From Asterella californica (Eukaryota; Streptophyta; Marchantiopsida; Marchantiales; Aytoniaceae), in assembly GCA_036924285.1 (NCBI GenBank), contig JAYKYS010000008.1, positions 10,176,501 to 10,240,500 of the forward strand: DNA of 64,000 nt, given 5' to 3'. Position numbers and translations under genes: made by a program. The notes under the pieces were generated by a model that did not search any database, was not told the origin of the DNA, and saw only the letters and a program-made list of their open reading frames with translations. Shown here one piece after another: positions 524 to 25,833 of this stretch. The first letter of the stretch is position 1. Each line of letters opens with the position of its first letter.

Positions 524-1114
524 TGTGAAGCCTTGGATTTCCAGTTTGTTAGAATATTTTTGTTTTTGTTCGATAAAACAGTAGATTAGTTAGTATAGAT
601 GATAGATAGGATAAGTTTAGTTGTAGTATAGAGATTCTTAGCCAAAGAATGATGTTGAGCAAGAATACAGAACCTATGAAGTGTATATCTTTGGAATAAT
701 AATCTAGCTGCATTCTTCAGACAAAGAGCTTTCCAGGGATACCTCATTTGCTGGGAACGGACGACGAATGACGAAATTAGGGCCCAGAGAAGAAGAACCA
801 AAACAGAAAAGAAATTCATGTAACTTCGCGGTCGAGGGACAAGAAGGACTTCGCACGTGAGGAGGCGAGAGGAAAAGCTATAAGAAGACTAAAAAAGAAT
901 TCAGTTTTACTATTTCCACTTGCGAGTTTACTGTAGCGCTCCGTAACGACCGATTTGAGAGAGGTGAAGTCTGTCTTCGGCGAAGAGAGCCTTCCTAGGG
1001 ATTAGTCGAAAGGAGAAGAGACTACCTTCGGCGAAGTTGATCTTCTTACATTCAGTGCTGAGTGAGAAAGTTTCGTAGTCTCAGCAGCGAAGGAACTTTG
1101 AATCTTCGGAGAAG

Positions 1115-2878
1115 ATGAGAGGGATGCAGACGTCGAAGAAGCCGAAGTTGAAGACTATAGCGACGAAGTGGGCGGACTTTAGTCCATATCGGGAACGACT
1201 GGAAGAAATGAGGATGACGTTCTTGATGGAGAACTGGGGGGTGATCTCTTCGGACCTAGTGCAAGAGATCCTCATCTGCAAGGGACACCTCTCCGAAGAT
1301 CTTTGGGGAAGACCGAACAACTAGAACGTGTCGCATTGAAGCTTTGCTTTAGAGATCGATGATGCGGGAAAACCCGATCTTCTATACGATAGCACTTACA
1401 AGCCATCTTCGGAGGAAGTGGAGAAGTACAACGAGATGTTCTCGACGATGTCGGTGGGGTCAAACGAATTTAAAGTTCACAGCTACATCGACTTGTTCAA
1501 GAGAGATGTAGCGATCGCGCTCAATACGATCTTCAAGCCACAGCGCACTTCGTATCTGACCAATTGGCAGATACATTTCATTGAACATGTCTTCGAAGAC
1601 AGGAAGGCGTAATGGGCGAAGATCTTCCACGACCACGTGCAGAAATTGTACACTACCTTCGACAATGGCGGATCGACATACTTCGCGGCCTTCGCATTGT
1701 TTTTTTTTATCGGAGAATGAAGTTACTATCTCCGGAACAAGAGGAGAAGTTCGAACAAAGAACGACTTCCGAAGATGAACTGTTGATGGAGACAACTCCT
1801 CGGAGGGAGGAAGTGACGAATCCAGTGACTTCGGCGGGACCTAGTACCCGGGCGAAGAGGAAGATAGATGAAAGAACACCGAGTGGCGTGACTTCGATGA
1901 GAAAGAAGAAAGCGAGAAGGACGACCATGACGACTTCGGATAAAGGGGTCGAAGGCGTACGATTTCCAGCAAAGTCTTCTTCTATGGAGATAATTGGAAC
2001 GACGGACTCGAGAGGAGACCAAGGAGAGTCGAGTGTGAGAAGGATATCTTCGCGTGTGGCAGAAGAAGAAGTGGAAGTCCCTCAAGCAGAACTTCGGACT
2101 TCGCCCAGACCAGGCGAAGCTACAACTTCGGGACCGAGTGACTCGAATTTTGGAAGAGAGTTGAAGATGTTCAAGTAGACTCTGAAATTCCTCAGTGGTA
2201 CAACGTTGCCGATCATGGCACAGTTGGACATGCAACGGTATGTCTACGAGAAGGAGACGAAAGAGTCGATATCGCTGAACGATCTTCTCAGTGCGGTACA
2301 CTTCGGACAACAAGGGTGGATTCAGGAGAAGGACGCTCTGACGAAGAAGCTGGAGGACACTTCGGACGAAGTCAGAACGTATACTTCGCAGCGAGATGCT
2401 TTGCTCGTGGCGCAGATGGAAGAACAAACAAGAGTTTTGCAAGAACTTCAGGACTGACAGACGAAGCTCAATCTTATGACTTCGTGCTTCCACGACTTGA
2501 AGTTAGAGAGAGATGCTATTTTGGAGCAGCTAGCGACTAAGGACGAGCAGTTGGCTACAAAGGATGAGGAGCTAACGAAGGCTCAGAAACGAAGGAGATA
2601 GCAGAAGTGAAGGCCGAAGAGCTTCGGACGAAGGTGGAAGAGGTTACGACTACCTACTTCGCCACCGAACTCAACTCAACAGAGAAAAAGTTACTCTAGC
2701 AGAATTGACGATAGCGTCAGATCCTTCGATGAAGAGTACATTAGTTAGGATAGCGGAGAGAATCATTAGAGATTTGAAGGAGCCTAGAGAAACGGTTAAG
2801 TTTTCATTATGGAATATAGGACAGACTTTACAGTTAGGTAGAGTAGAAACTTCGGTTCCACCAAGTGGGGGGACGTGA
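1115..2878 (+). pseudogene. LTR A internal ORF: globular domain plus charged linker plus coiled coil (degenerate)
   Basis: A chain of + strand reading frames runs from ATG 1,115 to TGA 2,878 (about 590 codons), broken by several stops and shifts (for example 1,321, 1,610, 2,176 and 2,455). The N-terminal part includes YLTNWQIHFIEHVFEDRK and, after a shift, WAKIFHDHVQKLY. It aligns with the ORF in the B-family solo LTR (YLGDQDVEFLESVWDDR, YIHNYVQTELAYLG). The middle is rich in K, R, S, T and E (RAKRKIDERTP, RKKKARR). The end is heptad-like and charged (KDALTKKLEDTSDEV, RDAILEQLATKDEQL) and closes with SLWNIGQTLQLGRVETSVPP. No enzyme motif is visible. The order of domains recalls the plant family called putative gypsy-type transposon protein, but this is a resemblance of layout only. 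Confidence 0.6.
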
Positions 2879-2943
2879 TCATACGGTCTAGATGTAGTCT
2901 TTTCTTTGTAAGAAATGAGGTCCGCCATCTTCGGGCGAGAGAC

Positions 2944-2950
2944 TATATAA
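2944..2950 (+). promoter_or_regulatory. TATA box of LTR A
   Basis: TATATAA lies 66 bp after the stop of the LTR ORF and about 95 bp before the AATAAA at 3,043. This is the usual order of the LTR promoter and the R region. It places the ORF upstream of the LTR start site, in U3. Confidence 0.55.
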
Positions 2951-3042
2951 GCGATTCGATTCTCAGTCATTTTACCTTTTCTATGTTTTCAGTTTTTTGT
3001 TAGTTAATTTTCGATTGTGCAAGATTGCGGAGTGAGAATGTA

Positions 3043-3048
3043 AATAAA
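3043..3048 (+). terminator. Poly(A) signal in LTR A
   Basis: AATAAA within GTAAATAAAGTG, downstream of the TATA box. It fits the 3' processing signal of the LTR. Confidence 0.45.
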
Positions 3049-3739
3049 GTGTGTGAAGACAATTATCTAGGAAGGACGTAGTTTGCTATCGCATGAGTAA
3101 ATCTGATTGATGCAGAACCTCCGAAGTTGACCTTCGGCGAAGAGAGTCTTCATACTATTTGAGTGAAAGACATTTCGAGGAATCTGAGAACATTAGTTAT
3201 TGTGAAGTGGAGAAGCATAAGTTAAATTGTAAGAAGGGTTTAGAATATGGTGGCTTCGTCTTAAGTCTGCCTTCTTCAAATAAGTGGGATTCTTAAGAGT
3301 GAAGATTTAGTTGGAAGAACACTTCTTAGGAAGAGTAGGGGCTTATTCTTTGAGCCTTGATGTGAAGTCTATATTTTTTTGTCTTTCAGAAGAACACTAG
3401 TAACATTTCAGCAGTATTTGCTATCTCATTTGTTCATACATCTATGTTCTCGGATCTTTTATTTGTGTTGTTGGAAGGGTCCCTGATCAAGAATTATTTC
3501 ATTATTGTTTGTATTCAATTTATCAGGTTGTGCTTGGGTTTGATTTCTTATCAGACTTAAACTCTCATCTGGATATTATTCCATTCCGTGAGAATAACAG
3601 AAAACTATATGAATTATCATTGTGATGTTGTAGTATTGTGTTTTGTGTAATTGTTAACTGGATCTTCGTGAGAACGATCCTTTATTTACTATTTCTGATA
3701 CTTTGTGTTTCTCTGGGTTGTTACAGTTCTACTTCGACG

Positions 3740-5612: not shown

Positions 5613-6483
5613 TCAAGGAGCCTTGTATGCGGGGCTCATCAAGATGATGAAGACCATGCAGGAAGGTATGGTCTCCAAGAATAAACGTATCGCTGAGCTT
5701 GAGATAGACCAAGGGAGGTTCTCGTCTACCAGAAAGCTCTGTAAGACGAATTTGCCGACCCCATTTTCAGGTATAGGACGGGCTCGCAAAGTTAAAGATT
5801 TCTTAACTGAGTTGGACTTATACTTTAAGGCGCAACAGACTCAAGAGTCAGACAAGATGAGAGCGGCGATTACGTTCCTGAAGGATCATGCGCTTCTCTG
5901 GTGGACTGCATACAGGGATGAACATGCCTTGACCGTCTCGATGCTTGGTTGGAAAAAGTTCAAAAGTGTTGCTCGCAAGACGATTCACTCCGGAGTATCA
6001 AAGGATTCGGGATGGTGTCGAGCTAGTTAGGTTGAAGCAGACGAGGACCTTAAGTGCTTATGTGCGCGAGTTCAGTGCCAAGCTGGATTCGTTCTCCAAG
6101 TGGACTAATGTATATTTATTGGAGGACTCAAGTCTAGCTCGGAGAAGGCTCTCTTTTGGATGCCGGAGCTACCTACGACAAGTGCTGAACTTTTGAAGCT
6201 AGCGGAGCGAATTGAGGACGATGAAGTCCAGCAACAGAAATCTTTTGAACCACGCAGTACGGACAAGTCCCAGAAGAAGAACAAAGGCTTCAAGCGATAG
6301 TGGGATGAGGATGAGAAGGATCGGAAGGATTCTTCTATCTCGGTAGCAAAGGGGCAACAAACATGAGCAAAACCTAAGGGGCAAACACCTCAGAAAGGCA
6401 ATGGTGCTAAGTTTACTTGCTACAATTGTGGCGAGGCGGATCATATTGCTAAGGGTGCACGAAACCTAAGATTAGTAACTGTA
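5613..6483 (+). pseudogene. Gypsy element D: gag fragment truncated by insertion of element B
   Basis: The + strand encodes a coiled-coil start (MMKTMQEGMVSKNKRIAELE), then a retrotransposon gag domain (PTPFSGIGRARKVKDFLTEL, HALLWWTAYRDE, then in another frame FTPEYQRIRDG and YVREFSAKLDSF). A basic linker and a CCHC zinc knuckle (CYNCGEADHIAK, 6,419-6,454) follow. The last Cys of the knuckle is recovered as CTKPKISN if the frame shifts by one base at about 6,453. Other shifts occur near 5,990 and 6,140 and stops near 6,300 and 6,364. The gag stops abruptly at 6,483, where the giant LTR of element B begins, so the pol of this element is elsewhere or lost. Confidence 0.85.
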
Positions 6484-7997
6484 TGTAGTGACATAGGATT
6501 ACTCCTTTTGTCCATTTAGTATACAAGATATCGTTCCCACAGAGGATTTGCACAAGTAACGCTGCTCTAAGTTCTAAGATCTGCTCAAACACACAAACAC
6601 ACGGGTTTTGCCTAGGAATCCCGTCTTCTCACAAAACCACGCGTCTTCCAAGTACGCCAAAATATACTCTAGATCTAAATAAACAACTACTAACTAAAAT
6701 ATCACACAACTATTCACAGAGGATCTCGGGAAGACGATCTTCCTGCTTCCAGGTCACTTCTTCCGGTCTTCTCAGTACCGTCTTCCCGAAGCGATTCTCG
6801 TCTTCTGGGGGTTCAGCTCGTCTTCTCACACCTCCAGAAGATTATCCTGCTCCACAGAAGTCGACTAGCAACGGTCGTTACACCTTACTCTTCCACTCAC
6901 ATTACAACGGGTTAGATCAATCACAGGGTGTATGCCCCCTGTAGCCTTCCCAGGCTTCTGTCTATGGAAATAGTCTTCCTGCAGCACTACAACGACATTC
7001 ACCTTCACGGAAGCTCGATAGAAGTCTCGGAAACTCACTAGAAGAAGGTAAGAAGATGGGGAAGATGAGAGAAGATGGGGAAGATGAGAAAATCCAAACA
7101 AGAGAAAAACAAGATGAAAAGAGGAAATTAAGATTCCGACAGGCTTCTAGTCCGGATCCTGACTAACAAGCCATCCCTGCTTGTAATAGTTTGGGGAGGA
7201 AGATAGCAAACGTGAATATAGTGGCACCGTCTTCTACTCGAGGATTTCGTCTTCTGTTGCGGGAGAAGGCTTCTTTCTTCTTCTCTTCGCTGCTACGGCT
7301 ACTCTGTCTTCTAGGATCCCTTACCCATAAGACTGTCCGTACGTATATCCCAAGTGCTCTACTGAACGAGTCAAGCTACACTTCCACAACTGCTGACAGT
7401 CACTGCCACTCAAGAAGAACACTTCCCATGTACAGTTGGGAGCGAATTCAAGGAACCCACCATCCAGAAGACACGGATTAAGCTTCTGCACTCAAATCAA
7501 CAATCTATTCCCCGAGAAGAAGTCACATTAGCATTGGGAAGCTCACTCCCTCTACTTCCTGCGTCTATTCCTCGACACACCAGTCTAGTCAACAGGACTG
7601 CACGAGGATCCCGTTCCCTGCTCCTAAACTGTCCACTACCTCTATCTACATCTTCGAACCACTTGCTGGTACGAGCATGCAGACCCCTCCTATGTATTCC
7701 AAGACTATTTGTATGTTTCCAACGACGGGTGTAGTGTGCCAAGAACTATCTGTCATGTGTCTCTAATGTGTCTAGTCTGCCTGCACCATAAAATCGATAT
7801 GGTGTGCAGCAGCTAGCTCCATTCCTACGCTGCAATCCTACTTATGTCGCTGCCGTGAGAATCAGAGGAGGCGACCACCAAGGAGAGAGGGGCGCTGATA
7901 GGAGGTTGCCACCCCACATGCAAGCGGTTCCCCTTCCTAATTAGCGATCCACTTTGTTGCCTACGCTACCTATGCTGCCACATGGTGTACTAACTAA

Positions 7998-8004
7998 TTT
8001 TATA
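7998..8004 (-). promoter_or_regulatory. TATA box of LTR B1
   Basis: Minus-strand TATAAAA within CCATATAAAATTAG lies about 70 bp after the end of the LTR ORF (8,076). This is the same spacing as in LTR A. In the solo LTR (about 20,510-20,523) the same place reads CCATGTAAAAATAG, so that copy has lost a base of the TATA box. Confidence 0.5.
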
Positions 8005-8075
8005 TGGAAAACTGCCACCCTTAAGATAGCATGTTTGTTCCTACTAAACTGGGAGTGTGTCACTTCGATTACTAT

Positions 8076-9340
8076 CTACTCTGATTGCTCCGTGGCAATC
8101 TCTACCTGATCTACTCCTATCTGAGCTCCTAACGCGGCTTCTGATAAGCTAGAAAGCCCTGCAGTTACCTCGGGTGTCACTGAGGTGGCTTCCTCCTCAT
8201 CGCTCTTCGCTGGCCCTGCTGTCGCTGCGGCTGCGTCTTCCTCGGCTTCGGCTTCTGCTTCGGAAGACGGAAGCGTCTTCTGGGAAGCAGAGTCGAGTGG
8301 TGCGTCTTCGGTCTTCTGAGGCACGGGTGCGGTACTAGGGACCATGGCGACCTCATAGAGGTCCGGGGAAGTCGCTTCCTCCACGCGGAATACCTGGGAA
8401 GACGGCTCGTCTTCCTATCTTCCGAGGAGTCTTCCGGAGTCTTCTCGGCTTCCAACGCTGTCAGTACCAAGTGCGCAGCGAGGTCGAACTCCTCCTTCTC
8501 CATTCCGGATCCAGTAGATGGTGCTGGAGCTTGAGAAGATGCAGTTGCAGGTATCGGAAGCGAGGGAAGACCATAAAGTGTCTTCACTCCCTCTATCTGC
8601 CGATCCAAGTACCTGAACATGCTCTCCTGGCATTCCACCAACATTGCCTTGGACTCGCTGTCCCATCCTCTAGCTAAGGTAAGTAACTTCCTACCTGCGG
8701 TGAAGTTAAACTTCTTCCGAAGCGCTTCCACCGACTGTGCTAGCATCTCCTGTGCACGAGCCTCCGCTGCTTCCCGCTGCATCTTCTCAACTGCAACTCG
8801 CGCTTCTGCGGCTTCTCGCTGCGTCTTTCAGGTGGTCTTCTTCTCTGCGAGGACGGTGATCTTCTCCCGCACTCGGAGGACCTCCTGATCGCGCTGCTGT
8901 ACACGCGCTTGCATCTCCTAGTTGCTCTTCCGAAGTTGCACCAGCTCCTTGGCAGAAGCGGCTGCTTCCGCCTTGTATCTGGCTGCGAGCTTCTCCGTGG
9001 TGCAGAGACTAGCTTCCAGCGACTCCGTCTTCTTCTGGTCTTCTTCCTGTCGCAGCAAGATGCACAGACCGAATCCAGGTTGCAAGGGCCTCTCCTGTGC
9101 CGTCGCTCTCTTCTCCAGCAACTCCATAGCTGGCTGGATCTCCTTGTGGAAGAAGGCGCTGAACTCTTCTAGTCTTCTTCCTGCGGAAGACAAGTTCATC
9201 TCCACTACTCGCTCTGAGGTGTCGACCTCGTCTTCCAGAGGCAAGGAGTCTGGCCTGTGGAAAGCCTCGATCCTCGGAGTCTGGCCTGTGGAAAGCCTCG
9301 ATCCTCGGAGTCTGGCCTGTGAAAAGCCCTGCGTCACCAA
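8076..9340 (-). pseudogene. LTR B1 ORF, first copy: coiled-coil region and tail
   Basis: Minus-strand frames read the coiled-coil half of the LTR ORF. Segments such as LEDEVDTSERVVEMNLSSAG, LLEKRATAQERPLQPGFG and TTEKLAARYKAEAAASAKE (9,230-8,930) are followed by ALRKKFNFTAGRKLLTLARG and FRYLDRQIEGVKTLYGLPSL (8,720-8,560). An acidic Ala/Glu-rich tail ending VEIATEQSE comes last, with the stop at 8,076. The frame changes at about 8,900 and again near 8,400. The same protein is found at 22,148-20,580. The upstream globular half is missing from this copy. The heptad pattern suggests a self-associating protein. No catalytic motif is seen. Confidence 0.55.
9245..9330. repeat. 31-bp tandem repeat, about 2.7 copies
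   Basis: GGAGTCTGGCCTGTGGAAAG recurs with starts at 9,245, 9,276 and 9,307. The unit lies inside the LTR ORF at the point where the copy loses similarity to the solo LTR, so it probably arose with that rearrangement. Confidence 0.8.
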
Positions 9341-10904
9341 TCTTCAGTCCAGGAAGATGGTCTTCCTCGAGCTACTCCTGCCTTCACAGGTACACGGTTG
9401 CGAGGTGGTAATGCTGCCCACACCTCCTCCAGAAGTCCCTGGTCTGCGAGGTTCCAGTCCCATAGGAAGAAATCGAGACCCAACTCGTCCAACTCCGTTG
9501 CTGGTAACACCAACCCTCGAGGATGCATCGTCATACTGGAAGATCTGTTGCACTAAGCCACAAGCACCTGCTATGAGCTGAAGGCTCAGTCCTTCCCAAG
9601 TGCCCACAGTCTAGCTTCTACTTCTCAGAAGACGAAACTAGTCTTCCAGAAGACAGCTACTCCGTCTTCCGGGATTCTAACAGTACTTCCCAGATAGCTC
9701 TCGTCTTCCGAGCTATATCTAAACAACCCTATCTAAGCAAGGCCTCGCATGGATTACCAAGAAGACAACCCACCTTGCATTACACCCTACTTCCTACTAG
9801 AAGATACAAGATTCGCGAAGAGTGCATAACAGGTTCTGAAGATGGTTGCGGGCTCCTGCGGTGACAGTGACCTCTGAGAAGACACTCGGGACAGTTTCCG
9901 ATTCAATGTCTTTCTCGGAAGACCTCCCGAAGTCAGGCTTCCCTTCACTGATCTCACCTGTCTTCGTCTTCCTACGTGCAATCTATCCTCACAACAGACT
10001 CAAGACAATTGCACTCTGTTCTTCTGACTTCTCACCTCTCATACGCACTCAGAAGAAGCTTGCTGCTCGGTGGGAAGACATGACCCTCGACCATTCTCTC
10101 CAGATTCTGCCAGCAAGTCTTCTCACGATTCTCTCCTAAGTTTGGGAAGAAGAAGGAATGACTGCTATGGGTCGGACAGAAGAGATCCGAAATGGACCCT
10201 CGCGTCTTCTCGCTCATTTTGTCAGCCTTTCAATCTTCTAGGCTCTCTAGGAAGATGTGGAGTTGAGAAGCTTGGAAGACCGGGAAGCACAAGCCTAGTT
10301 CCCGACTTCCAACTTCTCGAAATAACAAAAGAACTCACCACACCACTCAGGATTCGTACCAAGCCTCTCTTAACACAAAAGCAACACAAATCCACTCTTG
10401 ATACGAATTGGTTACAGTCGACTTCCGAAGACAGTCTTCCGAAGATGTTCCAATCTTCCGAAGCGTCTTCTGTTCCAAGTTTCGGGAGGAGAGGAGTAAT
10501 CGGGTAGGGAAATCGATAGCTGGGATTGTCAATTTGAGGACGATGGGTAGGGAAGCTCGAATTGAACTTAGGAAGAATCAAGAAGATGTCTGACAGAAAT
10601 TGGACAGCGCTTCCGCACCCAATGTCACTAGAGGAAAAAATGAGGATGGGGGTAATCGATCAGGCTGCCTGCAAACAACCGGGGAAGCGCGGGGGATACC
10701 AAACAAAGGCGAGAAGAAGTGGGAAGGGGAAAGAACGTGGGAAGAACCTCTACAGTCTTCTTCTGCTTCCCGAGTTGCCTTCGACCTTCTGCGCGCTTCT
10801 GGCTCTGGTCCCAGCTCCAATGCGACCCCACTGAGCTCGGAATACTTGACAAGACAGCTCTTCTTCCTGTCTTCTAGAAGACATCTTGTCTTCTGGGGCT
10901 TCTT

Positions 10905-11630
10905 CCAGAGTCTTCTCAGCTTCCAACGCTGTCACTACCAAGTGGACAACGAGGTCGAACTCCTCCTTCTCCAATTCAGATCTAGTCGATGGTGCTGGAG
11001 CTTGAGAAGATGCAGTTGCAGGTGACAGAATCAAGAGAAGACCATAGAGTGTCTTCACTCCCTCTATCTGCCGATCCAAATACCTGAACATGCTCTCCTT
11101 GCACTCTACCAACATCGCTCTGGACTCATCGTCCCACTCTCTAGCCAAGGTAAGCAACTTCCTACCCGCGGTGAAGTTGAACTTCTTTCGAAGCGCTTCC
11201 ACCGACTGTGCTAACATCTCCTGCGCACGAGCTTCCGCTGCTTCCCGCTGCGTCATCTCGGCTGCAATCTGCGCAACCCGGCACATACCACCTACTCGAG
11301 ATCATGGGTAAGATCTTCTTCTCGAGCCAACAACCTCGGTTCTCAGATTCTGACCTGTGAAAGGCCCTGTGCCACCAATCTTCGATCTAGGAAGATGGTC
11401 TTCCTCGAGCTACTCCTGCCTTCGCAGGTACACGGTTGCGAGGGGGTAAGGCTGCCCAAACCTCCTCCAGAAGACCCTAGTCGGCAAGGTTCCAATCCCA
11501 CAGGAAGAAGTCGAGAACTCCTTGATGAAGGATTTGGTCTCGGCCAACTCTGCTGCTGGTAACACCAACCCTCGAGGATGCATCGACATACTTGAAAATC
11601 TGTTGCCCACACGTACTTACTGTGAGTCGA
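10905..11630 (-). pseudogene. LTR B1 ORF, second copy (fragments of globular and coiled-coil parts)
   Basis: Minus-strand frames repeat the LTR ORF inside the second duplication unit. One segment corresponds to the region around MHPRGLVLPA at about 11,585-11,530. Another carries KKFNFTAGRKLLTLAREWDD and FRYLDRQIEGVKTLYGL (11,200-11,020), ending in ASSQAPAPSTRSELEKEEFD. The linker and most of the central coiled coil present at 8,930-9,340 are deleted here, so this copy cannot encode the full protein. It has the same sense as the LTR. Confidence 0.5.
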
Positions 11631-13309
11631 AGACTCAGTCCTTCCCAAGCTCTCACAGTCTAACTTCCACTCTCAGAAGACGAATCTAGTCTTCCAGAAG
11701 ACAGCTACTCCGTCTTCCGGGATTCTAACAGTGCTTCCTAAATAGCTCTCGTCTTCCGAGCTATATCTAACCAATCCTAACTAAGCAAGGCCTCCCATGG
11801 ATTCCTAAGAAGACAACCCACCTTGCATTACATCCTACTTCCTAACAGAAGATACAAGATTTGCGAGAAGTAGAGTGTACAATAGGTTCAGAAGATGGTT
11901 ACGGGCTCCTGCAGTGACAGTGGCCTCTGGGAAGACTCTCGGGACAGCTTCCGATTCAATGTCTTTCTCGGAAGACCTCCCGAAGCCAGGCTTCCCTTCA
12001 CTGATCTCACCTGTCTTCTGCTTCCTACGCGCAATCTATCCTCACAACAGACTCAAGACATTTGCACTCTGTTCTTCTGACTTCTCACCTCTCATACACA
12101 TTCAGAAGAAGCTTGCTGCATGACGGGAACACATGACCCTCGACCATTCTCTCCAGATTCTGCTAGCAAGACTTCTCACAACTCTCATTCTAAATTTGGG
12201 AAGAAAAAGGAGTAGGCTGCTATGGGTCGGACAGAAGAGACCCGTAACGGACCCTCACGTCTTCTCGCTTGTTCTGCCAGTCTTTCCAATCTTCTAGTCT
12301 CTCTAGGAAGATGTGGATTTGAGAAACTTGGAAGACCGGGAGGCACAGGCCTAGTTCCCAACTTCCAACTTCTCGAAATAACAAAACAACTCACCAAGTC
12401 ACTCGGGATTCGTACCAAGCCTCTCTTAACACAAAAACAAATCCAATCCACTCTTGATACGAATTGTACACAGTCGTCTTCCGAAGACAGTCAGATCTCA
12501 GAAGCGTCTTCCGAAGATGTTCCAATCTTCCGAAGCGCCTTCTGTTCACAGTTTCGGGAGTAGAGGGATGGTAGGGTAGGAAAATTGATAGTTGGGACCT
12601 CCAATTTGAGGGTTAGGAGTAGGGAAGCTCGAATTGCACTTGGGAAGAAACAAGAAGATGTATGACGGAAATTGGACAGCGCTTCCGCACCCAATGTCTA
12701 AGAAGGAAAAACGTGGGGAGGGAATTGATCGACCGGGTTGCCTGCAAACAACTAGGGAAGCGCAGGAGATCCCAAACAAAGGCGAGAAGCAGTGGGGAAG
12801 GAAAAAGAACATGAGAAGAACCTCTACTATCTTCTGTCTGCTTCCCGAGCTGTCTTCGATCTTCTGCGCGCTTCCGGCTTTGATTCCAGCTTCACTGCGA
12901 CCCCACAAAACTACTTCCACCGTCAGCTCCTTACTACGCCTCAATCGATCAAGTCTTCCACCTTCGATTCCACTCAGCCGTCCTCCAATGTCAACTTCCG
13001 GGAGTTCACAGAAAACTCCTTCAGCTCGATACGCTTCTGCTCTCAGTAATTCGACCATGCCTTCCTTCTAGCTTCGAATCAATTCTGACCTCTCTCAATT
13101 TCACCTCGCTGCTTCCTCACTCAAGGCTCACCCTCGAATCGATCTTCTAACCAAAACGTGCCTTTGCTGCGGGAAGCTGAAATGTGCTCATGTGCTTCCT
13201 GCGCATCTTCCCCGCAGTTTAGGGGTTTCGACCCTCTCGACCTACCTAACCTATTCGGTGCTACCTGGTAGGTCCACCTACTTCTTACGTGGTGAAGCTT
13301 CCGCGGTTG

Positions 13310-13425
13310 CCGTCTTCCGGAAGATACGTGTCTTCCGTCTTTCGCCGTCTTCCGTCGTCTTTCATCTTCCGAAGAAGAAGACGCTTCTCAGAAGACGGTC
13401 GTCTTCCGAAGAAGTCAGCTTTTTA
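13310..13425. promoter_or_regulatory. Cluster of GTCTTC/GAAGAC and CTTCCGAAG motifs near the 5' end of LTR B1
   Basis: About six exact GTCTTC or GAAGAC hexamers and several near variants occur in both orientations within about 115 bp, 140-250 bp inside the LTR start. A denser version is at the matching place in the solo LTR (25,570-25,685). The position in U3 suggests a protein-binding array or a hairpin-forming silencing target. No known element is matched with confidence. Confidence 0.45.
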
Positions 13426-13563
13426 TTACCAAAAGATCATAAGATTGTCTTCCTTCTAAGGAAGCCGTAATCTTAAGTCACAACGCTTCTTCAGTTATAC
13501 AAACAAGTTATTAATCTTAAAAATTTCAAAAATTCATGAATCCGGTAAATTGTGGGTACCACA

Positions 13564-13578
13564 TACGCCCACCCTCAC
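13564..13578 (-). promoter_or_regulatory. Polypurine tract of gypsy B
   Basis: Minus-strand GTGAGGGTGGGCGTA directly precedes TGTGG, the start of LTR B1, and lies about 70 bp after the end of integrase. It parallels the site of gypsy A. Confidence 0.65.
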
Positions 13579-13643: not shown

Positions 13644-15571
13644 TCATCCATTTACACGAGTGGTCATCAACGTACCGTTTAACTCTTCCAACTGCAAGGA
13701 ACCATTGGTGAAGACCTCCAAAACGCGATAAGGACCCATCCAGCGAAGATGAAGTTTCCCAGGGAACTTAAGATGCAGATTGTCGTAGAGAAGAACCAAG
13801 TCCCCATCTGTGACGGTCATCTTCTTCAGCTTGCCATCATAGTTCATCTTACGTTGCGCTTGTACTTCGTACGTCTTCTCCAAAGCTGCATTCCTATCTT
13901 CTTTGAACTCTACAAAGTTCAGAAGACGCTGCTCCTGGCTTTCCTCTTCTTCCATGCGTCCGGTTACGGCTAATCTGTAAGTAAGGACCTCTAACTCGAT
14001 GGGCACAATAGGTGTCATGTCATAAGTTAGGTAGAAGGATGTCTTCTAGATCGTGACTTTGGATGAAATCCTGAAAGTCCATAACACATATGGCAATTTC
14101 GTGTCCCAATCATACGCATGGTTAACAGTTACCTTATTCAGGATATTACATAGAAGACCATTCGACTTCTCCGCCAGTCCGTTCGCTTTCGGGTTGTACG
14201 GCGTTGTCTTCCGATGCTATCTTGAAGTATTGGGTCAGGAGAGAAATAGTCTCATTTAAGAAATGAGTACCCCTATCTGATATCAATTCCAGCGGACATA
14301 ATAGTGATAATGTTGTGTCAGAGGAACCTGACTACCACCGCGGCGTCGTTCTTCCTTGTGGCTTCGTCCTCTACCATCTTGGTAGCATAGTCGGTAGCTA
14401 TCAAAATATACCGTGCTCGTGTTCTTCTTGCCACCGGGGCGATAGGCCCAACAAAGTTGATTCCTCACTTTTCAAAAGAAGCAAGCGGAAGAATGGGAGT
14501 AAGAAGCCACCTAGTAGTAGCTGTTGGTCTTCCCACCCTTTGGCACAAATCACATTTCCTGATCTCCTGAAAAGGGTCTCTGTACATGGTTGGCCACCAG
14601 TAACCGGCGTCCAACATCTTTTTCACTGTAATCTTCAGCCCGTAATGACCCCCAGCATCTTCGTAGTGAAGACCCCTGATCACTGGCTTAATCTCTGAAG
14701 GCTCAAGGCATCTCCTTAGCTTCTCATCATGTCCCTTCCTAAACAGGATATCCTGGAAGATGGCGTAAGGACCTGCCTTGTGTAAGAAGACAGCCTTCTG
14801 CTCCGCATCCAATCCTTCGGGATACTGTTGGTCTTCCAAGAACTTCCTTAAGTCCTTGAAGATCGACTCTTCTGTGGAAGTCGCAAAGACTGGATCAGAA
14901 GATCTAGTCTCGTCTTCTGGGAAGCAGGCGGTACGCCCCCCCTCAGATGAAAGTGTCTCTACGAAAACTGAAAACAGCTTCTCGTCAGGGAACTCGTCTT
15001 CCACTTCATCTTCTCGTCGTTCCGTCTCCAATCTGGATAGGTAGTCAACATTAACATGTTGTCTTCCAGGCCTGTACTCAACTGTGTAAGTAAATTCCTG
15101 GAGTAGAAGAATCCACCTAGCTATCCTACCAGACAAATCTGCTTTCTTCACAAGATGTTTTAAAGAAAAATGATCCACATAGAAGACAAACGGGTTGGCT
15201 AGAAGAAAGTGCCTAAACTTTCTATAGGAGTAAATCATGCCGGGACACTCCCTTTCAGTTGTAGAGTACTTCTTCTCTGCATCACTGAGTTGTCTTCCCG
15301 CATAGTAGATGAGATAATCCTTCTTCTTCTCATCTTTCTGACTCAATACCACCCTTATGACAAAAGCAGAAACATCCACATAAATATGGAAGATTCTCTC
15401 CCAATCAGGTGGCCTTAGGACAGAGGATTCCGCCAGAAGTCTTTTCATTTCTTCGAATGTTTCCTGCTGCTCAGAAGACCAAATGTAAGGTTCGTCCTTC
15501 TTCAGCAACTTGGTAAGTCTTCCTGCTACCTCTGCATACCTGTCAATAAACCTCCTGTAGTATCCTACGTT
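13644..15571 (-). pseudogene. Gypsy B pol, second part: RNase H and integrase (degenerate)
   Basis: On the minus strand, DNVGYYRRFIDRYAEVAG opens where element C interrupted pol. RNase H follows (FHIYVDVSAF, YYAGRQLSDAEKKYSTTERE, FVFYVDHFSLKHL). The integrase zinc site has two His and two Cys (HYEDAGGHYGLK, CDLCQR; about 14,680-14,570). The catalytic core is in broken frames: INFVGP has Asn where Asp is expected, ATDYATKM and ISDRGTHFLNE are kept, and NGLAEKSNG supplies the Glu. The C-terminal MTPIVPIELE and DGDLVLLYDNLHLKFPGK reach the stop at 13,644. There are stops near 14,465 and 14,090 plus frame shifts in the core. The element is dead. The matching RT is on the far side of element C. 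Confidence 0.9.
15567..15571. repeat. Target site duplication ACGTT of element C (left)
   Basis: ACGTT at 15,567-15,571 is repeated at 27,721-27,725. Removing everything between restores one gypsy pol frame, with the RT end QLRSFLGNV running into VGYYRRF. Confidence 0.85.
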
Positions 15572-17468
15572 ATCGTGTCGAATATTGCATGAAGGATGTC
15601 TAGGAAAACGCGAGGTTCCTGGCTGTGGAGATGTTGTGTGCTGAAACAGAGACAAGACAGAGAAAAACAACCACGAAAACGAACGCTGCGATATATACAC
15701 TCCAAATGTATGTACACTGCCGGTTCTTTCTCCTAAGAGCAGAGAACTGAAAAACAGACTAGAGCGGTCTGTAACCTGCTTCAAAAACCCCTGAAAGCAA
15801 CCCTTGAATCACAATCCTGACCCAAAACCACCGAAGCGTAGCTCAAAGCAAGAGAAACTTCTCTTTGCTAACAAACAAAGCCACAGCAGTATCACGCGAT
15901 CCAAACCTAAGCCCAAACCACATCCATGTATAAGCTCTTAGCTAAAGCTAGCTACCACAAGCTGTATACAGCCAACCAGAACTCTAACGAACTCAAAAGA
16001 GCAAAACTCGTAGCGAAGAAACCAAAAAAGACCTATCTGTGGACTTTTTCCTTTCGCTGAACGGACTTCAGATGTCGATAGGGTCTCCTTCGTTGACTCC
16101 GTTAACCCAGGAAACCTTCAGATTCGACTCCCAACAGCCGAGATATCATCGATTTTTGATCGCAGGTGACCGAAACTTCAAAAATTCCTCCCTGCTGCTT
16201 AAAACCGCACACACCGCACAAACGGATCGTCTAAACTGATATCTGTCTTCTCTAGCAGATAGATCTAGCTACCCTGAACCCAACAAGACTCCAAACAAGC
16301 CGTTTGGAGTTCCCCTTGCAAAACCACGCAAGAAATTTGATCGCAGGTTGCAAAAAACTGACGTAAATCGGCTCCTTGCGGCTCAAACTCGCTCACCACA
16401 TACAAACCAACAATCCAATCCACACACGGTCTTCTCCTATGAGTAGATGAAGATTCCTTGATCCCGTAGGCACCAAGAACGAAGAGCTTAGCTCACCGAT
16501 CGCGAAGAACAACCCAATCTCAGATCGCAGGCGAACGAAAATCTGATGTAAGCGCTTCCCTGCGAGCCAATTTCACTCAGAACTCCCAAACCGTCCGATG
16601 AAACTTCGTATCATCTTCAATTTCCTGAAGAACTCGTTGTTCTGATCCCGATGGATCCAAGGATAGCAAGTTTGGACTCCGGAACACTGTCCGAACGGTC
16701 CAACTCTCCTTCACAGGTAACTGAAAACTTCAAATCTGCTTCCTGCGTCTCAATTTCTCTCAGAACACAACCCCCGATCCGTCTCTTCAAGAACCGTTTG
16801 AACCAGTGCGTAGCCTGCACAGATCTGAACCCAACGACGCCTTGCGCGCTTGCATTGGACTCCTAAATCTCCTGAACCGTTCGTTGATAGGTCGTAGGCG
16901 CAAGCTAACCCCTTAAGCAGCCCCCTTGTTACAGTCTATGTACGTACGAAGTTCTCTCAATAATAAGGAAGCTGACCCCTTGCATCTTTGATATAACGCC
17001 TGAAGCCTCAAATACCCAGTCAGCAAGTAAACTAAGGTCTAACTTGATTTTGCCTTCTTTCAAGTCGCATAACTTCTTCACTAGATGTTCAAACGACGTA
17101 AACAAGATGCCCATGGAAAGCTGACAACGAGCTCTACCCATCTATGTGATGAAAGTGAAGATCCGAAGTTGCGCCAAAAGCCCGTAAGCTGGGGCCTAGC
17201 TTGTTTTCTCCATCTTTCGAGTCTTGTAACTTTTCCACTATGCGTCCAAACAAAGTAGACAAGATGTCTATGGAAAGTTGACAAGGAGCTCTATCCACTG
17301 ATGCGATAAAAGCAAAGATCCGAAGTTGTGTCAAAAACCCACAAGCTGGGGCCTAGCTTGTTTTCTCCATCTTTCGAGTCTTGTAACTTCTCCACTAGGC
17401 GTCCAAACGAAATAGATGAAGTGTCTATGGAAAGTTGACAAGGAGCTCTACCCATCTATGTGATGAAA
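15572..17468 (-). repeat. 3' LTR of element C (truncated)
   Basis: It matches the other LTR copy closely from the outer end to GATGAAAATGG at 17,468, where similarity stops and gag sequence begins. It lacks roughly the first 130 bp of the minus-strand LTR. A tandem array of about 158 bp units lies at 17,040-17,466. Small minus-strand frames in this array (CQLSMGILFTSF, CQLSIDILSTLF) are repeats of each other. I see no independent gene. Confidence 0.85.
17040..17466. repeat. About 158-bp tandem repeats in LTR C (left copy)
   Basis: The block starting AAGCTGGGGCCTAGCTTG recurs at about 17,186 and 17,343, with a more diverged unit before it. Each unit contains a GGAAAG(C/T)TGACAA(C/G)GAGCTCTA site. 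The right LTR shows the same array at about 27,165-27,650. Confidence 0.8.
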
Positions 17469-18810: not shown

Positions 18811-18940
18811 CCGTCTACAAATCCATCACCCCAGGTCCACAGCATCCTCCCAAACAACCAAATCCATCTTCATCCTCGTTCATGATTGCTGATCTCTTCT
18901 GCTCAGTTCTAACAGACAAATATCTCCACCTCGGACCTTC

Positions 18941-18955: not shown

Positions 18956-18959
18956 CCGT

Positions 18960-19091
18960 ATAGTGTCGGATATTGCGTGAAGGAGGTCCAGGAAAATGCG
19001 AGGTTCCTCACTGTGGAGATGTTGTATGCTGAAACAGAGAAAAAACAAAGAAAAACAACCACGAAAACGAACAATATATACACTCCAAATG
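18960..19091 (-). repeat. 5' LTR of element C, inner part (split by solo LTR B2)
   Basis: The sequence ATAGTGTCGGATATTGCG and what follows match the outer end of the left LTR (15,572-15,705) up to CTCCAAATG. The solo LTR begins there. The rest of this LTR resumes at 25,839. Confidence 0.85.
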
Positions 19092-20579
19092 TTTAGTGAC
19101 GAAGGATTTCTCCTTTTGCTCATTTAGTATACAAGATATCGTTCCCACAGAGGATTTGCACAAGTAACGCTGCTCTAAGTTCTAAGATCTGTTCAAACAC
19201 ACAAACACACGGGTTTTGCCTAGAAATCCCGTCTTCTCACAAAACCACACGTCTTCCAGACACGCCAAATGGTGCTCTGGACCCAAACAAACAACTACCA
19301 ATTACAATATCACACAACTATTCACAGAGAAGCTCGGGAAGACGAACTTCCTGCTTCTAGGTTGCTTCTTCCGGTCTTCTCGATACCGTCTTCCCGAAGC
19401 GATTCTCGTCTTCTGGGGGTTTAGCTCGTCTTCTCACACCTCCAGAAGGCTGTCCGGCTTCGCAGAAGTCGACTAGTAACAGTCGTTACACCTTATTCTC
19501 ACACTCACATTCCATCGGGTTGGATAAATCACAGGGTGTATGCCCCCTGTAGCCTTCTCAGGCTTCTGCCTACGGAAGTTGTCTTCCTGCAGCACTACAA
19601 CGACATTCACCTTCACGGAAGCTCAATAGAAGTATCGGAAGCTCACTAGAAGAAGATAAGAAGATGGGGAAGATGAGGGAAGATGGGAAGAAGAAGAAAT
19701 CCAAAACAAGAGAAAACAGGATGAAAAAGAGCAATTAAGATTCCGACAGGCTTCTAGTCCGGATCCTGACTAACAAGCCATCCCTGCTTGTAATAGTTTG
19801 GGGAGGAAGACAACAAACGTGAGTACTGTGACACCGTCTTCTACTCGAGGATGTCGTCTTCTGTTGCGGGAAGAAGTCTTCTTTCTTCTTCACTTCGCTG
19901 CTCTGACTGCTCTGTCTTCTGGGATCACTTACCCAGAAGACCGTTCGTACGTAGATCCCAAGTGCTCTACGGAACGAGTCAAGCTACACTTCCACAACGG
20001 CTGACAGTCATCGCCACTCAAGAAGAACACTTCCCATGCACAATTGGGAGCGAATTCAATACATTCCACCACCCAGAGACATGGACAAAGCTGCTGCACT
20101 CAAATTCACAATCTATTCCCCGAGAAGAAGTCACAATGGCATTGGGAAGCTCACTCCCTCTACTTCTTGCGTCTACTCCTCGACACACCAGTCTAGCTAA
20201 CAGGACTGCACGAGGATGCCGTTCTCTGTTCCTAGACTGTCCCTGCTCTAATGTGTCTCTCCTACCTGCCTGTAGAATCGGTGTGTATGTTCAGTTACTG
20301 CCGAATTCTACAGAACTGGCAGAGCTCTCAGAGAGCTTTTCTCCTACCATGCTATCCTACTTAACCATCTGCCTTGGGAGGCGACCACCAGGGAGAGAGA
20401 GAGGCGCTGACAAGAGGTTGTCACCTCACATGCATGCGGTCCCTCTTCCCAATTAGCCCTCCACTGTATTACTCCTACGCTACCTATGCTGCCACATGGG
20501 GTCCTAACTATTTTTACATGGAAAACTGCCACCCTTAAGATAGCATGTCCAATCCTACTAAATCTGGAAGTGTCGATTG

Positions 20580-23500
20580 AGTTTGCTAAATACTCTGATT
20601 GCTCGGTGGCAATCTCTACATGATCTGCTCCTACCGGAGCTACTACCTCGACTTCTGATGGGCTGGGAAGCCCTGCACTTACCTCGGGTACCACTGAGGT
20701 AGCTTTCCTCTCCTCGCTCTTCGCTGGCCCTGCTATTTCTGCGGCTGTGTCTTCCTCGGCTTCGACTTCGGAAGACGGAATGGTCTTCTGGGAAGACGAG
20801 TCGAATGGTGCGTCTTCGGTCTTCTGAGGCACAGATGCAGTACTAGGGACCATGGCGATCTCATAGGGGTCCGGGGAAGTCGCTTCCTCCACACGGAATA
20901 CCTGGGAAGACGGCTCGTCTTCCTGTCTTCCAGAAGACATCATGTCTTCCGGGGCGTCTTCTGGAGTCTTCTCGTCTTCCAACGCTGTCACCACCAAGTG
21001 TACAGCGAGATCGAACTCCTCCTTCTCCATTCCGGATCCAGTCGAGGGTGCTGGGGCTTGGGAAGATGCGGTTGCAGGTGTCGGAAGTGAGGGAAGACCA
21101 TAAAGTGTCTTCACTCCTTCTATCTGTCTATACAGGTACCTGAACATGCTATCTCTGCATTCCACCAACCTCGTCTTGGACTCGCTGTCCCATTCCCTAG
21201 CTAAGGTATGTAACTTCTTACCTGCGGTGAAGTTGAACTTCTTCCGAAGCGCTTCTACCGACTGAGCTAGCATCTTCTACGCACGGGCCTCCGCTGCTTC
21301 CCTCTGCGTCTTCTCTGTTGCAGCTCGCGCTTCTGCGGCTTCTCGCTGCATCTTCCAAGTGGTCTGCTCTTCTGCGAGGATAGTGATCTTCTCCCGTACT
21401 CGGAGAACTTCCTGATCACGCTGCTGTACTCACGTCTGCAACTCCTGGTTGCTCTTCCGAAGTTGCATCGACTCTTTGGCAGAAGCGGCTGCTTCCGCCT
21501 TGTACCTGGCTGCAAGCTTCTCCGTAGTGCGGAGACTAGCTTCCAGAGACTCCGTCTTTTGCTGGCTGTCTTCCTGTCGCAGCAAGGTGCGCATGCCAAA
21601 TCCAGGCTGTAGAGGCTTCTCCTGTGCCCTCGCTCTTCTTTCCAGCAACTCCATAGCGGGCTGGATCTCCTTCTGGAAGTAGGCACTGAACTCCTCCAGT
21701 CGTCTTCTTGCAGAAGACAAGTTCATCCCCACCACTCGCTCGATGGTGTCAACTTCGTCTTCCAAAGGCAAGGGAGCCTCTTCCACCACTACGGCCTTCA
21801 TCTTCTGCGCACGAGAAGAAGCTACTCTTCTCATCTTCCGGAGTGGAAGACTCCTCGTGGCAGGAGCGGCTCTCCTCTTTGCACTTCCTCGCATCGCAGT
21901 AGGAGTGCCCATCCATCCTTCGTCTTCTGGAGTCTTCGGAAGACTCCCAGGTGTTACAGAAGCTGTCTTCTGCTCCGATCGGGTACTCAGCAAGTCTTCC
22001 TCCGAGTCCGACTCCGATCCTGAATGGATGAGGGAGATGGGTGTCCTCGGTACACTTCTGTGGCCCATCTTCCTCACTGGCGTGGCGTCTTCCGACCCAC
22101 TAGACTCGTCTTCCCTCACCAGAAGCGTCTTCTGGTGAGAGCCGGGCCTGTAACGACCTATGTTACACATAGGAAGTTTGTCTATTAGTAATGTATTTAG
22201 TTATAACTAAGTGTTGAGAATGTTTATTTGCTGCCAAAGTACTTTAAGGAGGTATCAAGTTAGTCATGACTAGCTAAAAGTTAGTTATGGTTAAACTTAG
22301 CTGTACTTTTGACAGAATTCAGATATTTGCTAAAGAGTGAGCACTACTATCTTGTCATCTTGTCTAAAAGGTAGAAAGGAGGTGGAAAGTATCCCTTATC
22401 TCCTTTTTGACTTGATATTAGTGGTTGGATTAAAGTTGTGGACTTTGTGGGCATTAAAAACAAGAAGAGATTCCACATGTTTCCTTTTTAGTGGGTCCTA
22501 GTGTAGAGGGGGGTGGAAATTCGAGATTCCTTGAGAATATTCCAGAATCCTTCTAGAAGTTGTTGACTTTGAAGGAATAAGCCCATGTGAAAAGGTAAAA
22601 AGCCCATGTGATCAATGCTTTTACCTTAAGTAATATCTTAGTAAAACCCGGTAAAAGTAGTTACGGCTGAGTTACCGGGGGTACCAAAGTAAAAACCTAG
22701 AATGTATAAATAGAGGAGTAGAGAAGAGCTCCTCATCCTTGTTTTCACATTGTCGTAATGACAACTTGAGTAATATAGAGAGTGTGGGATATTTTTAGCA
22801 TGTGAGAACTTGAGAGACATCGTTAGAATGGAGGATTTTAGTTGATGTGTTTAATGAGATTTTTAGTTGATAAGTTTGTGGGTGTATGAATGAGTGAACT
22901 TAGCATTTTCCCTTCAAGTTCATGGTGTGCTTCCATCAAAGCCATCAGAGGTGACCCCTGAGTGAGAGACAGGCCCGACATGTTGCAGATTCGTGGATGA
23001 CGATCGTGGAGGTTGAGAGATCGGGGGGTAGTTGATCGATAGGACCGCGGAGGGTTTACAGACCTCAGCTGTGGCATCAGAGTGAGAGGGGGCGTTGCTG
23101 CTGCCTCTCGGTCATCGTCTTCCGAGGTCTCCTCCTTCACCTCCTGTCGCTCCGTTGGTCCATACACTGCCAGCTGATCTTCCCTAAGATCCCCCATGGC
23201 TACATACAAGTAGCAGAAGAAGGGCGTCAGATGTCCTCCCGCCGGGGTACCCAAGTATGCTAGCTCCGTCTGTACATAGTTGTGGATGTACGCGCCCCAG
23301 TAGATTGGCACTCTGTCATCCCACACTGATTCCAGGAACTCCACGTCCTGATCTCCTAAGTACCTCGTCTTCTGCGCTTTTTCCTTGGGGAAAAGATGCA
23401 GAAACAACTTCGCCAGAAGTCGCTTCTTCGACTCCCGGTAAGACTCTATCTTCCAACCGTTCCTCCCCTGCCTGTCTTCCACGAAAAGGCAGGTGGTACT

Positions 23501-23848
23501 CCCAGGTACATGCCATAAACTCACAATCCTAGGCAAGATCTTCTTCTCGTACCAATATCCTCGGTTCTCGGTCTCAGACCTGTGAAACGTCTTACGCCAC
23601 CAGTCTTCTGTCCAGGAAGATGGTCTTCCCCGAGCAACTCCTGCCTTCGCAGGTACACGGTTACGCGGTGGTAACGCGGCCCATACCTCCTCCAGAAGCC
23701 CTTGATCTGCGAGGTTCCAGTCCCACAGGAAGAAGTCGAGACCCAACTCCTTGAGGAAAGGAGTGGCCTCGGCCAATTCTGTCGCTGGTAACACCAGACC
23801 TCGCGGATGCATCGACATACCTGGAAGATCTGCTGCACTAAACCACAA
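20580..23848 (-). pseudogene. LTR B2 ORF: globular N-terminal domain, basic/acidic linker, long coiled coil
   Basis: If LTR E (22,149-22,905) is ignored, one minus-strand frame runs with few breaks from ATG codons near 23,818 to about 20,580, roughly 800-850 codons. The N-terminal part (23,818-23,190) has FFLWDWNLADQGLLEEVWAA, SWTEDWWRKTF, WYEKKILPRIVSLWHVPG, YLGDQDVEFLESVWDDRVP and FFCYLYVAMGDL. The linker is Ser/Glu/Asp-rich, then basic (RKMRRVASSRAQKMK). The coiled coil spans 21,780-21,430 (RRRLEEFSAYFQKEIQPAME, TTEKLAARYKAEAAASAKE) and resumes after a stop at 21,430. FNFTAGKKLHTLAREWD and an acidic tail to VEIATEQSE close it. There are only a few stops, so constraint lasted until recently. 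The function is unknown. The homologous ORF is in LTR A. Confidence 0.6.
22149..22905 (+). mobile_element. Small solo LTR E nested in LTR B2
   Basis: The segment begins TGTAACGACC and ends CTTAGCA. It interrupts the LTR ORF between EGK and the RPGSHQK part. It has LTR-like internal signals, including TATAAATA at 22,705-22,712, about 200 bp before the end. It is absent from LTR B1. I found no matching 5-bp target duplication (GGGCC left, TTTTC right), so the ends or the mode of insertion are uncertain. Confidence 0.6.
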
Positions 23849-25569
23849 GCACCTACTATGAGCTGAAGGCTCAGTTCTTCCCGAATGCCCACAGTCTAGC
23901 TTCCACTCTCAGAAGACGAAACTAGTCTTCCAGAAGACAGCTACTCCGTCTTCCGAGATTCTAACAGTGCTTCCTAAATAGCTCTCGTCTTCCGAGCTAT
24001 ATCTAAACAATCCTATCTAAGCAAGGCCTCGCATGGATTACCAAGAAGACAATCCACCTTGCATTACATCCTCCTTCCTAACAGAAGATACAAGATATGC
24101 GAGAAGTAGAGTATGAGAAAGGTTCAGAAGATGGTTGCGGGCTCCTGCGGTGACAGTGGCCTCTGGGAAGACACTTGGGACAACTTCCGATTCAATGTCG
24201 TTCTCGGAAGACCTCTCGAAGTCAGACTTCCCTTCACTGATCTCACTTGTCTTCTTCGTCCTACGCGCAATCTATCCTCACAACAGACTCAAAACATGTG
24301 CACTCTGTTCTTCTGACTTCTCACCTCTCATACACACTCAGAAGAAGCTTGCTGCATGATGGGAAGACATGACCCTCGACCATTCTCTCCAGATTCTGCC
24401 AGCAATACTTCTCACAACTCTCTTCTAAGTTCGGGAAGAAGAAGGAACGGTTGCTATGGGTCGGACAGAAGAGACCCGAAATGGACCCTCACGTCTTCTC
24501 GCTCATTTTGCCAGCCTTCCAGTCTTCTAGTCTCTCTAGGAAGATGTGGAGTTGAGAAGCTTGGAAGATCGGGAGGCACAGGCCTAGTTCTCGAGTTCCA
24601 ACTTCTCGAAATAACACAACAACTCACCACACCACTCAGGCTTCGTATCAAGTCTCTCTAAACACAAAAGCAAAGCAAATCCACTCTTGATACGAATTAT
24701 GTTCTGTCGACTTCCGAAGATGTCTTCCGAAGACAGTCAAGTTCAAGAAGCGTCTTCCGAGGATGTTCCCATCTTCTGAATCGTCTTCTATTTCAAGTTT
24801 CGGGGGTAGACAGGTAGTAGGGTAGAGAAATTGATAGTTGGGTTCGCCAATTTGAAGACTAGGGGTAGGGAAGCTCGAATTGAGCTCGGGAAGAAGCAAG
24901 GAGATATCTTGACAGAAATTGGGCAGCGCTTCCGCGCCCAATGTCTCAATAGGAAAGATGGGGGGTGGGGTAATCGATCAGGCTGCCTGCACACAATCAA
25001 GGAAGCGCGGGGAGTACCAGACAATGGCGAGAAGAAGTAGGAAGGGGAAAGAACAAGGGAAAGAACCTCTACAGTCTTCTTCGGCTCCCGAGTTGCCTTC
25101 GACCTCCCCGCGCTTCTGGCTCTTGTACTAGCTTCCAATGCGACTCCTCTCGAATGCGCCTGCTGTCAATTTCGGTCCACACCTCGATTATTCTTTCGCT
25201 TCTACTCGCCACTCTCCACTGTCAACTTCTCGGAAGCTCCACAAAAATGCCTTCGCTCTTTCTGCTGTTTGTGCTCCCGCAATCCGATTTCACCCTTCGC
25301 CTAGCTGCCAACGTACTCTCTACTACCTCGATGTCTTACTCGATTCCTCTCTCAATGCTAGCTCGAAGTTCACTCTCTCAATCGATCTTCTTCAGGCGCA
25401 CTGTGCTGCGGGAAGTTGGAAGGTGGCTAATGTGCTTCCTCACGCATCTTCCCCGCAGATTAGGGGTTCTCGTCCTTGGTGTCTTCCTGACCTACCTACC
25501 TATTCGGTGCGCTCTAGTAGGTACACCTACTTGTTTACCCGAAAACTCGTGGTCAGGCCTTCGTGATCG

Positions 25570-25685
25570 CTGTCTTCCGGAAGACAGGTGTCTTCCGCCG
25601 TCTTCCCATCTTCCGCCGTCTTCCTATCTTCTGAAGACGCAACTGAGAAGACGGTCTTCCGAAGACGGTCGTCTTCTGAAGAAGT
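25570..25685. promoter_or_regulatory. Dense GTCTTC/GAAGAC array near the 5' end of LTR B2
   Basis: About ten exact GTCTTC or GAAGAC hexamers, several as CTTCCGAAGAC or GTCTTCCGGAAGAC pairs, lie within about 115 bp, some 150-260 bp inside the LTR start on the minus strand. Opposed copies could fold into hairpins. The same position in LTR B1 carries a similar but less dense cluster. Confidence 0.5.
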
Positions 25686-25833
25686 CAACTTCTTATTACA
25701 AACAGCTCTTAAGATCATCTTCCTGTTAAGGAAGACGTAACCTTAAGTAACAACGCTTCTTCAGTTATATAAACAAGTCATTAATCTCAAAAATTTCAAA
25801 AATTCGTGAATACTGTAATTTGTGGGCACCACA

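Follow-up and report, generated by a model that had tools for sequence, protein, structure and literature searches.

The sag gene of mouse mammary tumour virus and the nef gene of primate lentiviruses are accessory genes placed in the U3 region of the long terminal repeat (LTR), a position that makes them part of both LTRs and puts them at the 3' end of genomic RNA. VANDAL elements are DNA transposons of the Mutator type. In the available portions of two reports, related VANC proteins of Arabidopsis VANDALs are described as recognising different words that have accumulated in their own elements (PMC5735166, PMC10398659). The plant elements Retand, Grande, RIRE2 and Retrosat2 (ORF0) carry conserved extra open reading frames (ORFs) of unknown function, for which a nuclear location is often suspected; in the available text of their descriptions these ORFs are internal, either 5' of gag or in the stretch from pol to the 3' LTR, and none is described within an LTR (PMC7264820, PMC11963269, PMC3485330). 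The accessible text on liverwort Ty3/gypsy elements related to Tat/Athila likewise makes no mention of a gene in the LTR. Here a 64,000-nt stretch of Asterella californica (assembly GCA_036924285.1, contig JAYKYS010000008.1, positions 10,176,501-10,240,500, forward strand; hereafter the window) was analysed against the genome (516.7 Mb, 773 contigs). Its DNA sequence shows a Ty3/gypsy lineage in which each LTR carries, in sense orientation, a putative accessory gene, referred to below as the LTR ORF, which resembles the additional ORFs above in being conserved and extra to gag and pol and differs from them in lying inside the LTR. An initial annotation, made from the window alone, had proposed such a gene in two gypsy families and knew of no described plant gypsy lineage defined by one; a literature search, in which subscription journals were scarcely covered, turned up no plant LTR element described as carrying a conserved gene within the LTR.

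ORFs in sense orientation were found within the LTRs of three families, A, B and D. In the window, family A is represented by LTR A (524..3725, + strand), the 3' LTR of a truncated element, with an ORF remnant at 1115..2878 (+) that was aligned to the open frame of locus L029 and differs from it by five frameshifts and five in-register stops. Family B is represented by the solo LTR B1 (19092..25833, - strand) and by the 3' LTR of a host element (6484..13563, -). The 5' part of the B1 ORF (globular domain; 23064..23818, -) is open and was aligned in B copies elsewhere, and the 3' part (linker, coiled coil and acidic tail; 20593..22149, -) has two stops, both in the coiled-coil part. Between them lies an AT-rich 0.9-kb repeat (22150..23063, -), which the B LTRs used for comparison lack (gap in B1, 2780/3695) and which interrupts the ORF, so that the end of a 336-aa ORF belongs to the insert. 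By eye, the same repeat lies in opposite orientation near the LTR 3' end of L027. The B 3' LTR consists of two rearranged partial copies by self-comparison, with a coiled-coil part at 8079..9343 (-; open frames 8921-9343, 8180-8827 and 8079-8414). The order globular domain, charged linker, coiled coil, which the initial annotation had assigned to LTR A and both B LTRs, was thus recovered in A and B1 and not in the 6484-13563 copies, both of which lack the globular domain; the sense orientation held in A and B. The homology that it had seen between segments of the two LTR families was borne out for the globular domains of A and B1 (BLOSUM62 local score 101 vs ≤59 in 300 shuffles).

None of the ORFs in the window is intact. 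Open copies, on which the proposal of a functional gene depended, were found elsewhere in the genome. In 10 of 20 fetched LTRs the B ORF is open over 800 codons between stops, or ~767 aa when counted from the first Met region, and the A ORF measures ~590 aa, with 591-656 aa stop to stop in nine of ten fetched loci; copies were picked partly for long open frames, which biases both shares upward. Stop-free frames of at least 796 aa were present in 20 of the 120 B places listed and frames of at least 589 aa in 28 of the 150 A places listed, ten of the latter in one tandem array. First-pass candidates numbered 17398 (B) and 3116 (A), of which 120 and 150 were scored, so these figures do not fix copy numbers. 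On contigs C103 and C114, matches to the A-type ORF recur every ~45.8 kb in a large tandem array, with frames of 278 and 594-595 aa ~2 kb apart. Family D was located through its primer binding site (PBS), which together with the following G occurs 105 times in the genome. At eight loci gag is of a different kind and a homologous ORF is represented by its C-terminal half; the N-terminal half, together with the LTR start TGTGAAGCC, was seen in the two upstream stretches fetched. Judged by coordinates, the L047 frame runs on into L039 and reaches ~610 aa. Since the ORF is copied along with the LTR, a full element holds two copies and a solo LTR one.

The ORF was then placed relative to the core promoter of the LTR. 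In LTR A the remnant ends (2878) 65 bp before TATATAAG at 2944; TATATAAGCG (2944..2953, +) is the probable core promoter and follows the frame end in 9/9 A copies. In D, TATATAAGCG stands 34 bases from the first base of the stop (~31 bp after the ORF end) in the three copies checked, and the A and D promoter blocks align beyond shuffles (0/500 reach the score). Because the ORF ends just before TATATAAGCG in both families, it almost certainly belongs to U3 there, as far as sequence can tell. At the corresponding place in B, a TATCTTAAGGG...TAAAAATAG block was present in 19/20 fetched LTRs; the old 3' LTR of the window has TATAAAA ~71 bp after the ORF stop (8076-8078), in CATATAAAATTAG (7994..8006, -), and B1 has the TATA-like GTAAAAATAG (20508..20517, -). 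A point against the explanation preferred below is that the B block resembles neither that of A nor that of D more closely than shuffled sequence does (31 and 376 of 500 shuffles reach the score). Since the B block is unlike that of A and D, and the fetched copies have TAAAAATAG, a U3 position in B is likely but less certain. An ORF end ~65-75 bp before a TATA box, as initially claimed for A and B1, therefore stands for A, while the B1 site is non-canonical.

An ORF so placed resembles sag and nef in lying in U3; like them it would be carried at the 3' end of genomic RNA and occur in both LTRs, the likeness on which the initial annotation had built. It differs from them in its plant Ty3/gypsy hosts, in the lack of a detectable sequence relationship (Pfam scan of the globular domains found no homology to the sag or nef protein families) and in that the entire ORF is inside the LTR. 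The comparison holds for position only. A second mode of expression is conceivable, in which every LTR, solo LTRs included, would by itself form a complete gene, with a promoter of its own close to the LTR 5' end and poly(A) in R/U5, transcribed separately from the genomic RNA. B LTRs have a candidate 5' promoter ~65 bp in (TATATAAC, or GTATAAC in L027), with the ORF ~2 kb further in and the core promoter block after the ORF; no comparable site stands out in A. This arrangement is possible, though the balance tips somewhat to the other side; it concerns expression only and is compatible with the explanation preferred below. If the LTR gene is real, a gene with many copies per genome escapes annotation in which LTRs count as noncoding, solo LTRs can keep making an element protein after the element is lost, and the sag/nef type of position exists in plant elements as well.

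Hexamer counts were used to look for family-specific words in the LTRs. GAAGAC occurs 82 times in a B LTR against 6.5 expected; in an A LTR, ACTTCG occurs 30 times (2.6 expected) and CCGAAG 22 times (1.8 expected). Of the Glu-Asp pairs in the B ORF, 15/16 are written GAAGAC. In an old copy, word sites were wholly kept in 46/65 cases vs 81/184 for permuted words (p 2.7e-4; bases within one site are not independent). Words of the VANC kind, different in each family, are thus strong in B and A and weaker in D, and they are dispersed rather than tandem. The encoded protein measures ~590-770 aa. Its N-terminal domain, ~220 aa long, is conserved; it also has a charged linker and a region of heptad repeats, whose periodicity stands out in A and D. 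The linker contains basic clusters, RRKKKARR for instance, which suggest that the protein enters the nucleus.

From these features the following explanation is preferred. The protein would be made from the 3' end of the genomic RNA or from the promoter near the LTR 5' end, enter the nucleus through its basic linker and self-associate via its coiled coil. Its N-terminal part would bind the short word that crowds the DNA of its own family (GAAGAC in B, ACTTCGG/CGAAGT in A), and binding would keep the family accessible to transcription, in the way that VANC proteins act on VANDAL transposons. The likeness to VANC is of an element-encoded protein in related families with different short words in their own DNA. 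The VANDAL words are described as tandem repeats in noncoding parts, whereas the LTR words are dispersed and reach into coding parts, and binding has been demonstrated for VANC, whereas for the LTR protein it is inferred. Taken whole, as an LTR accessory gene with VANC-like self-recognition, this explanation might equally be right or wrong. That the protein recognises the DNA of its own element is a tentative proposal by analogy, and we put it below an even chance. The broader idea, that self-recognition of the VANC kind evolved in LTR retrotransposons through an LTR-encoded coiled-coil protein and a family-specific hexamer spread by selection, coding parts included, so that every copy, solo LTRs included, would make and answer the signal while word and protein co-evolve between families, appears rather unlikely. 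The crowding of words does yield a directly testable prediction on how a retrotransposon may recognise its own DNA.

Several observations weigh against self-recognition. GAAGAC is also dense in B gag (23 vs 3.7 expected) and at the pol end, and in coding parts it is strand-biased (ORF 28:8, gag 20:3). D has weaker words only (CCGAAG 12 vs 1.5, GAGGAA 15 vs 2.2 expected), 3/8 retention tests in A were not significant, the heptad signal is weak in B, and a Pfam scan of the globular domains recognised no known DNA-binding domain. The dense word in gag, the strand bias in coding parts and the weak words of D make a cause at the level of RNA or codons possible. Alternatively, the LTR ORF could serve replication as an accessory gene of the sag/nef or another type; its product, made from a spliced RNA or from the 3' genomic RNA, would act on the particle, RNA or nuclear import with no recognition of DNA, and the words would help RNA to be spliced, packaged or exported. 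GAAGA words, being purine-rich, look like splicing enhancers, which together with the U3 position, the sense bias in coding regions and the presence of the words in gag agrees with such a role. In the 5' noncoding part of the B LTR, however, GAAGAC is about equally frequent on both strands (19:15) and forms close inverted pairs (CTTC-N1-2-GAAG, 9 vs 0.3 expected), and the favoured sense word of A, CTTCGG, is of the opposite strand type to GAAGAC of B. On this evidence a purely replicative role is unlikely, if by no means far-fetched.

Selection on the LTR ORF was estimated from the ratio of nonsynonymous to synonymous substitution rates (dN/dS); pairwise values share copies and are not independent. 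In A, dN/dS was 0.14-0.35 in 35 between-copy pairs (synonymous divergence, dS, 0.06-0.93), and one within-element LTR pair had seven nonsynonymous and two synonymous changes. D gave 0.18 in one pair; over its coil part, seven copies gave 0.31. For B the ratio was 0.855 within elements (six LTR pairs), in keeping with neutral change following insertion, and 0.47 in the pairwise comparison of 13 elements. L011/L012 was left out of the within-element control (99.92% identity past the LTR); L012 was counted among the 13. Changes shared among B copies (36 synonymous, 19 nonsynonymous; 0.19) differed from private changes (78 and 182; 0.84) by Fisher test (p 1.9e-6). The comparison with gag is less favourable: in the same seven B copies gag gave 0.225 vs 0.59 for the LTR ORF (L012 and L017, 2/9, left out for coverage of 1 base and identity of 0.76), so that in young B copies the ORF appears less constrained than gag. 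Overall, the substitutions indicate with near certainty that the ORF was under purifying selection while the elements multiplied; the initial annotation had suggested selection, and outside the neutral changes after insertion the ratios are far below 1.

Identity between globular domains was 44-47% for A-D, 27-28% for D-B and 22-25% for A-B. Relatives were sought by several routes. Four globular domains had no match in Pfam at E up to 10 other than Bac_globin (E 0.1, below the cut-off), and a PDB profile search, like the Pfam one suggested at the outset, returned nothing significant (best E 0.55, chance level). Among 5.8 billion proteins, the B1 ORF and the alignment A2 drew 2393 and 7996 candidates for scoring and none at E up to 10, in a search that needs shared 5-residue words and that distant relatives may escape. 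Two scans of viral contigs and one of prokaryotic genome contigs gave 4, 35 and 42 pattern matches and no relatives. The plant transposon proteins Transposase_28 (PF04195) and PF20167, similar in layout, had no hmmscan match among the proteins scanned. A fold of the B1 globular domain from the window sequences only was unusable (mean pLDDT 37).

With no relative found outside these elements in the searches above, the ORF might be a host gene or part of another transposon that was captured once and has hitchhiked without function for the element. Such a capture had been named at the outset as what would undo the proposal if confined to the window copies. The presence of the ORF in three families argues against recent capture by those copies, and the three families keep it at a corresponding place at 22-28% (B vs A/D) and 44-47% (A vs D) identity, with the low dN/dS of A given above. 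Functionless hitchhiking is thereby largely refuted and very improbable. None of the outcomes that the initial annotation had named as refuting its proposal was obtained, which supports that proposal.

The LTR status of the regions rests on pairs, target site duplications (TSDs) and internal signals. LTR A, which begins at 524 as first annotated, ends at 3725 with TG...CA ends; it aligned over its whole length (77%) to the LTRs of pairs L029/L030 and L032/L031 and is preceded directly by the polypurine tract (PPT) GAGAGGGGGAGTA. Both A pairs (99.4% and 98.0%) have TSDs (ATTGT and CAAAT). In B, six same-orientation pairs match at 97-98% along a 5.85-kb LTR (L019/L020 over 5.26 kb only, where the TSD could not be judged), with perfect 5-bp TSDs in 4/6 (CTTCC, CTATT, CAAGA, TTGAG) and 4/5 bases in L017/L018; perfect TSDs were thus found in six of the eight A and B pairs examined. 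B1, a complete LTR from 25833 to 19092 (-), has the TSD CATTT (25834-25838 and 19087-19091) and matches the L009/L010 LTR, one of the 5.85-kb 5'/3' pairs, along its length, one insert excepted; its empty site is visible in the other LTR of a nested element with 1.9-kb LTRs, at 15.7 kb (self-comparison, boundary reading). The PBS TGGCGCCGCTGCCGGGGAT, common to A, B and D, follows the 5' LTR (one base differs in two 5' LTRs shown), and a PPT precedes the 3' LTR. LTR A and B1 are true LTRs. In L011/L012 (C71:483570-505830) identity is 99.92% through 1.5 kb upstream and the whole LTR; as it extends beyond the LTR, the B element lies there in a tandem LTR-internal-LTR arrangement. An internal region in which, as in Retand/Grande, an additional ORF of the usual kind stands between pol and the 3' LTR would fit an ORF that comes after integrase and PPT, but is ruled out for A and B by pairs 97-99.4% identical along the LTR, TSDs, a PPT upstream and PBS downstream and the TSD of a solo LTR, and is hardly conceivable overall.

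Assignment to Ty3/gypsy follows from the order reverse transcriptase (RT)-RNase H-integrase in the B pol pieces (Pfam) and from Retrotrans_gag, found in L009 in a separate gag ORF, together with TSDs, PBS and PPT. In the Tat/Athila lineage the PBS is complementary to tRNA-Asp; in A, B and D it reads TGGCGCCGCTGCCGGGGAT. Among named sources, B pol came closest to proteins of Riccia sorocarpa (56% identical over 84%), of Calypogeia and of Marchantia. With the liverwort elements related to Tat/Athila the present ones share that they are Ty3/gypsy elements of a liverwort, with a pol best matched by Riccia and Marchantia proteins.

Directly upstream of LTR A, the C-terminal end of the A pol (integrase; 196..525, +) forms an open frame; by eye it resembles the integrase end of B (13647-14018, -). 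On the minus strand, the parts of the B host element follow one another in the order RT (27654..28418; PF00078), RNase H and integrase zinc finger (14468..15784; PF17917, PF17919, PF17921), PPT GAGGGTGGGCGTA (13564..13576; also before the 3' LTR in L010, L013, L015 and L022) and 3' LTR (13563-6484; start TGTGGTACC, end CACTACA). The nested element (15571-27599, -), whose LTRs are 1.9 kb long and whose internal region is short, splits RT from RNase H; its LTRs lie at 15571-17472 and at 27599-25834 plus 19092-18959, the second being split in turn by solo LTR B1.

By eye, a copia-type fragment (3726-5640, +) directly follows LTR A, and a gag-like ORF with a zinc knuckle from another gypsy element (5566-6470, +) adjoins the end of the B 3' LTR. 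A 539-aa open frame (37250-38866, +) has membrane-like segments and a soluble C-terminal part, a 161-bp unit is present in three tandem copies at 57907-58407, and two long open frames (60886-63998, -) show, by eye, leucine-rich repeats of the ribonuclease-inhibitor type.

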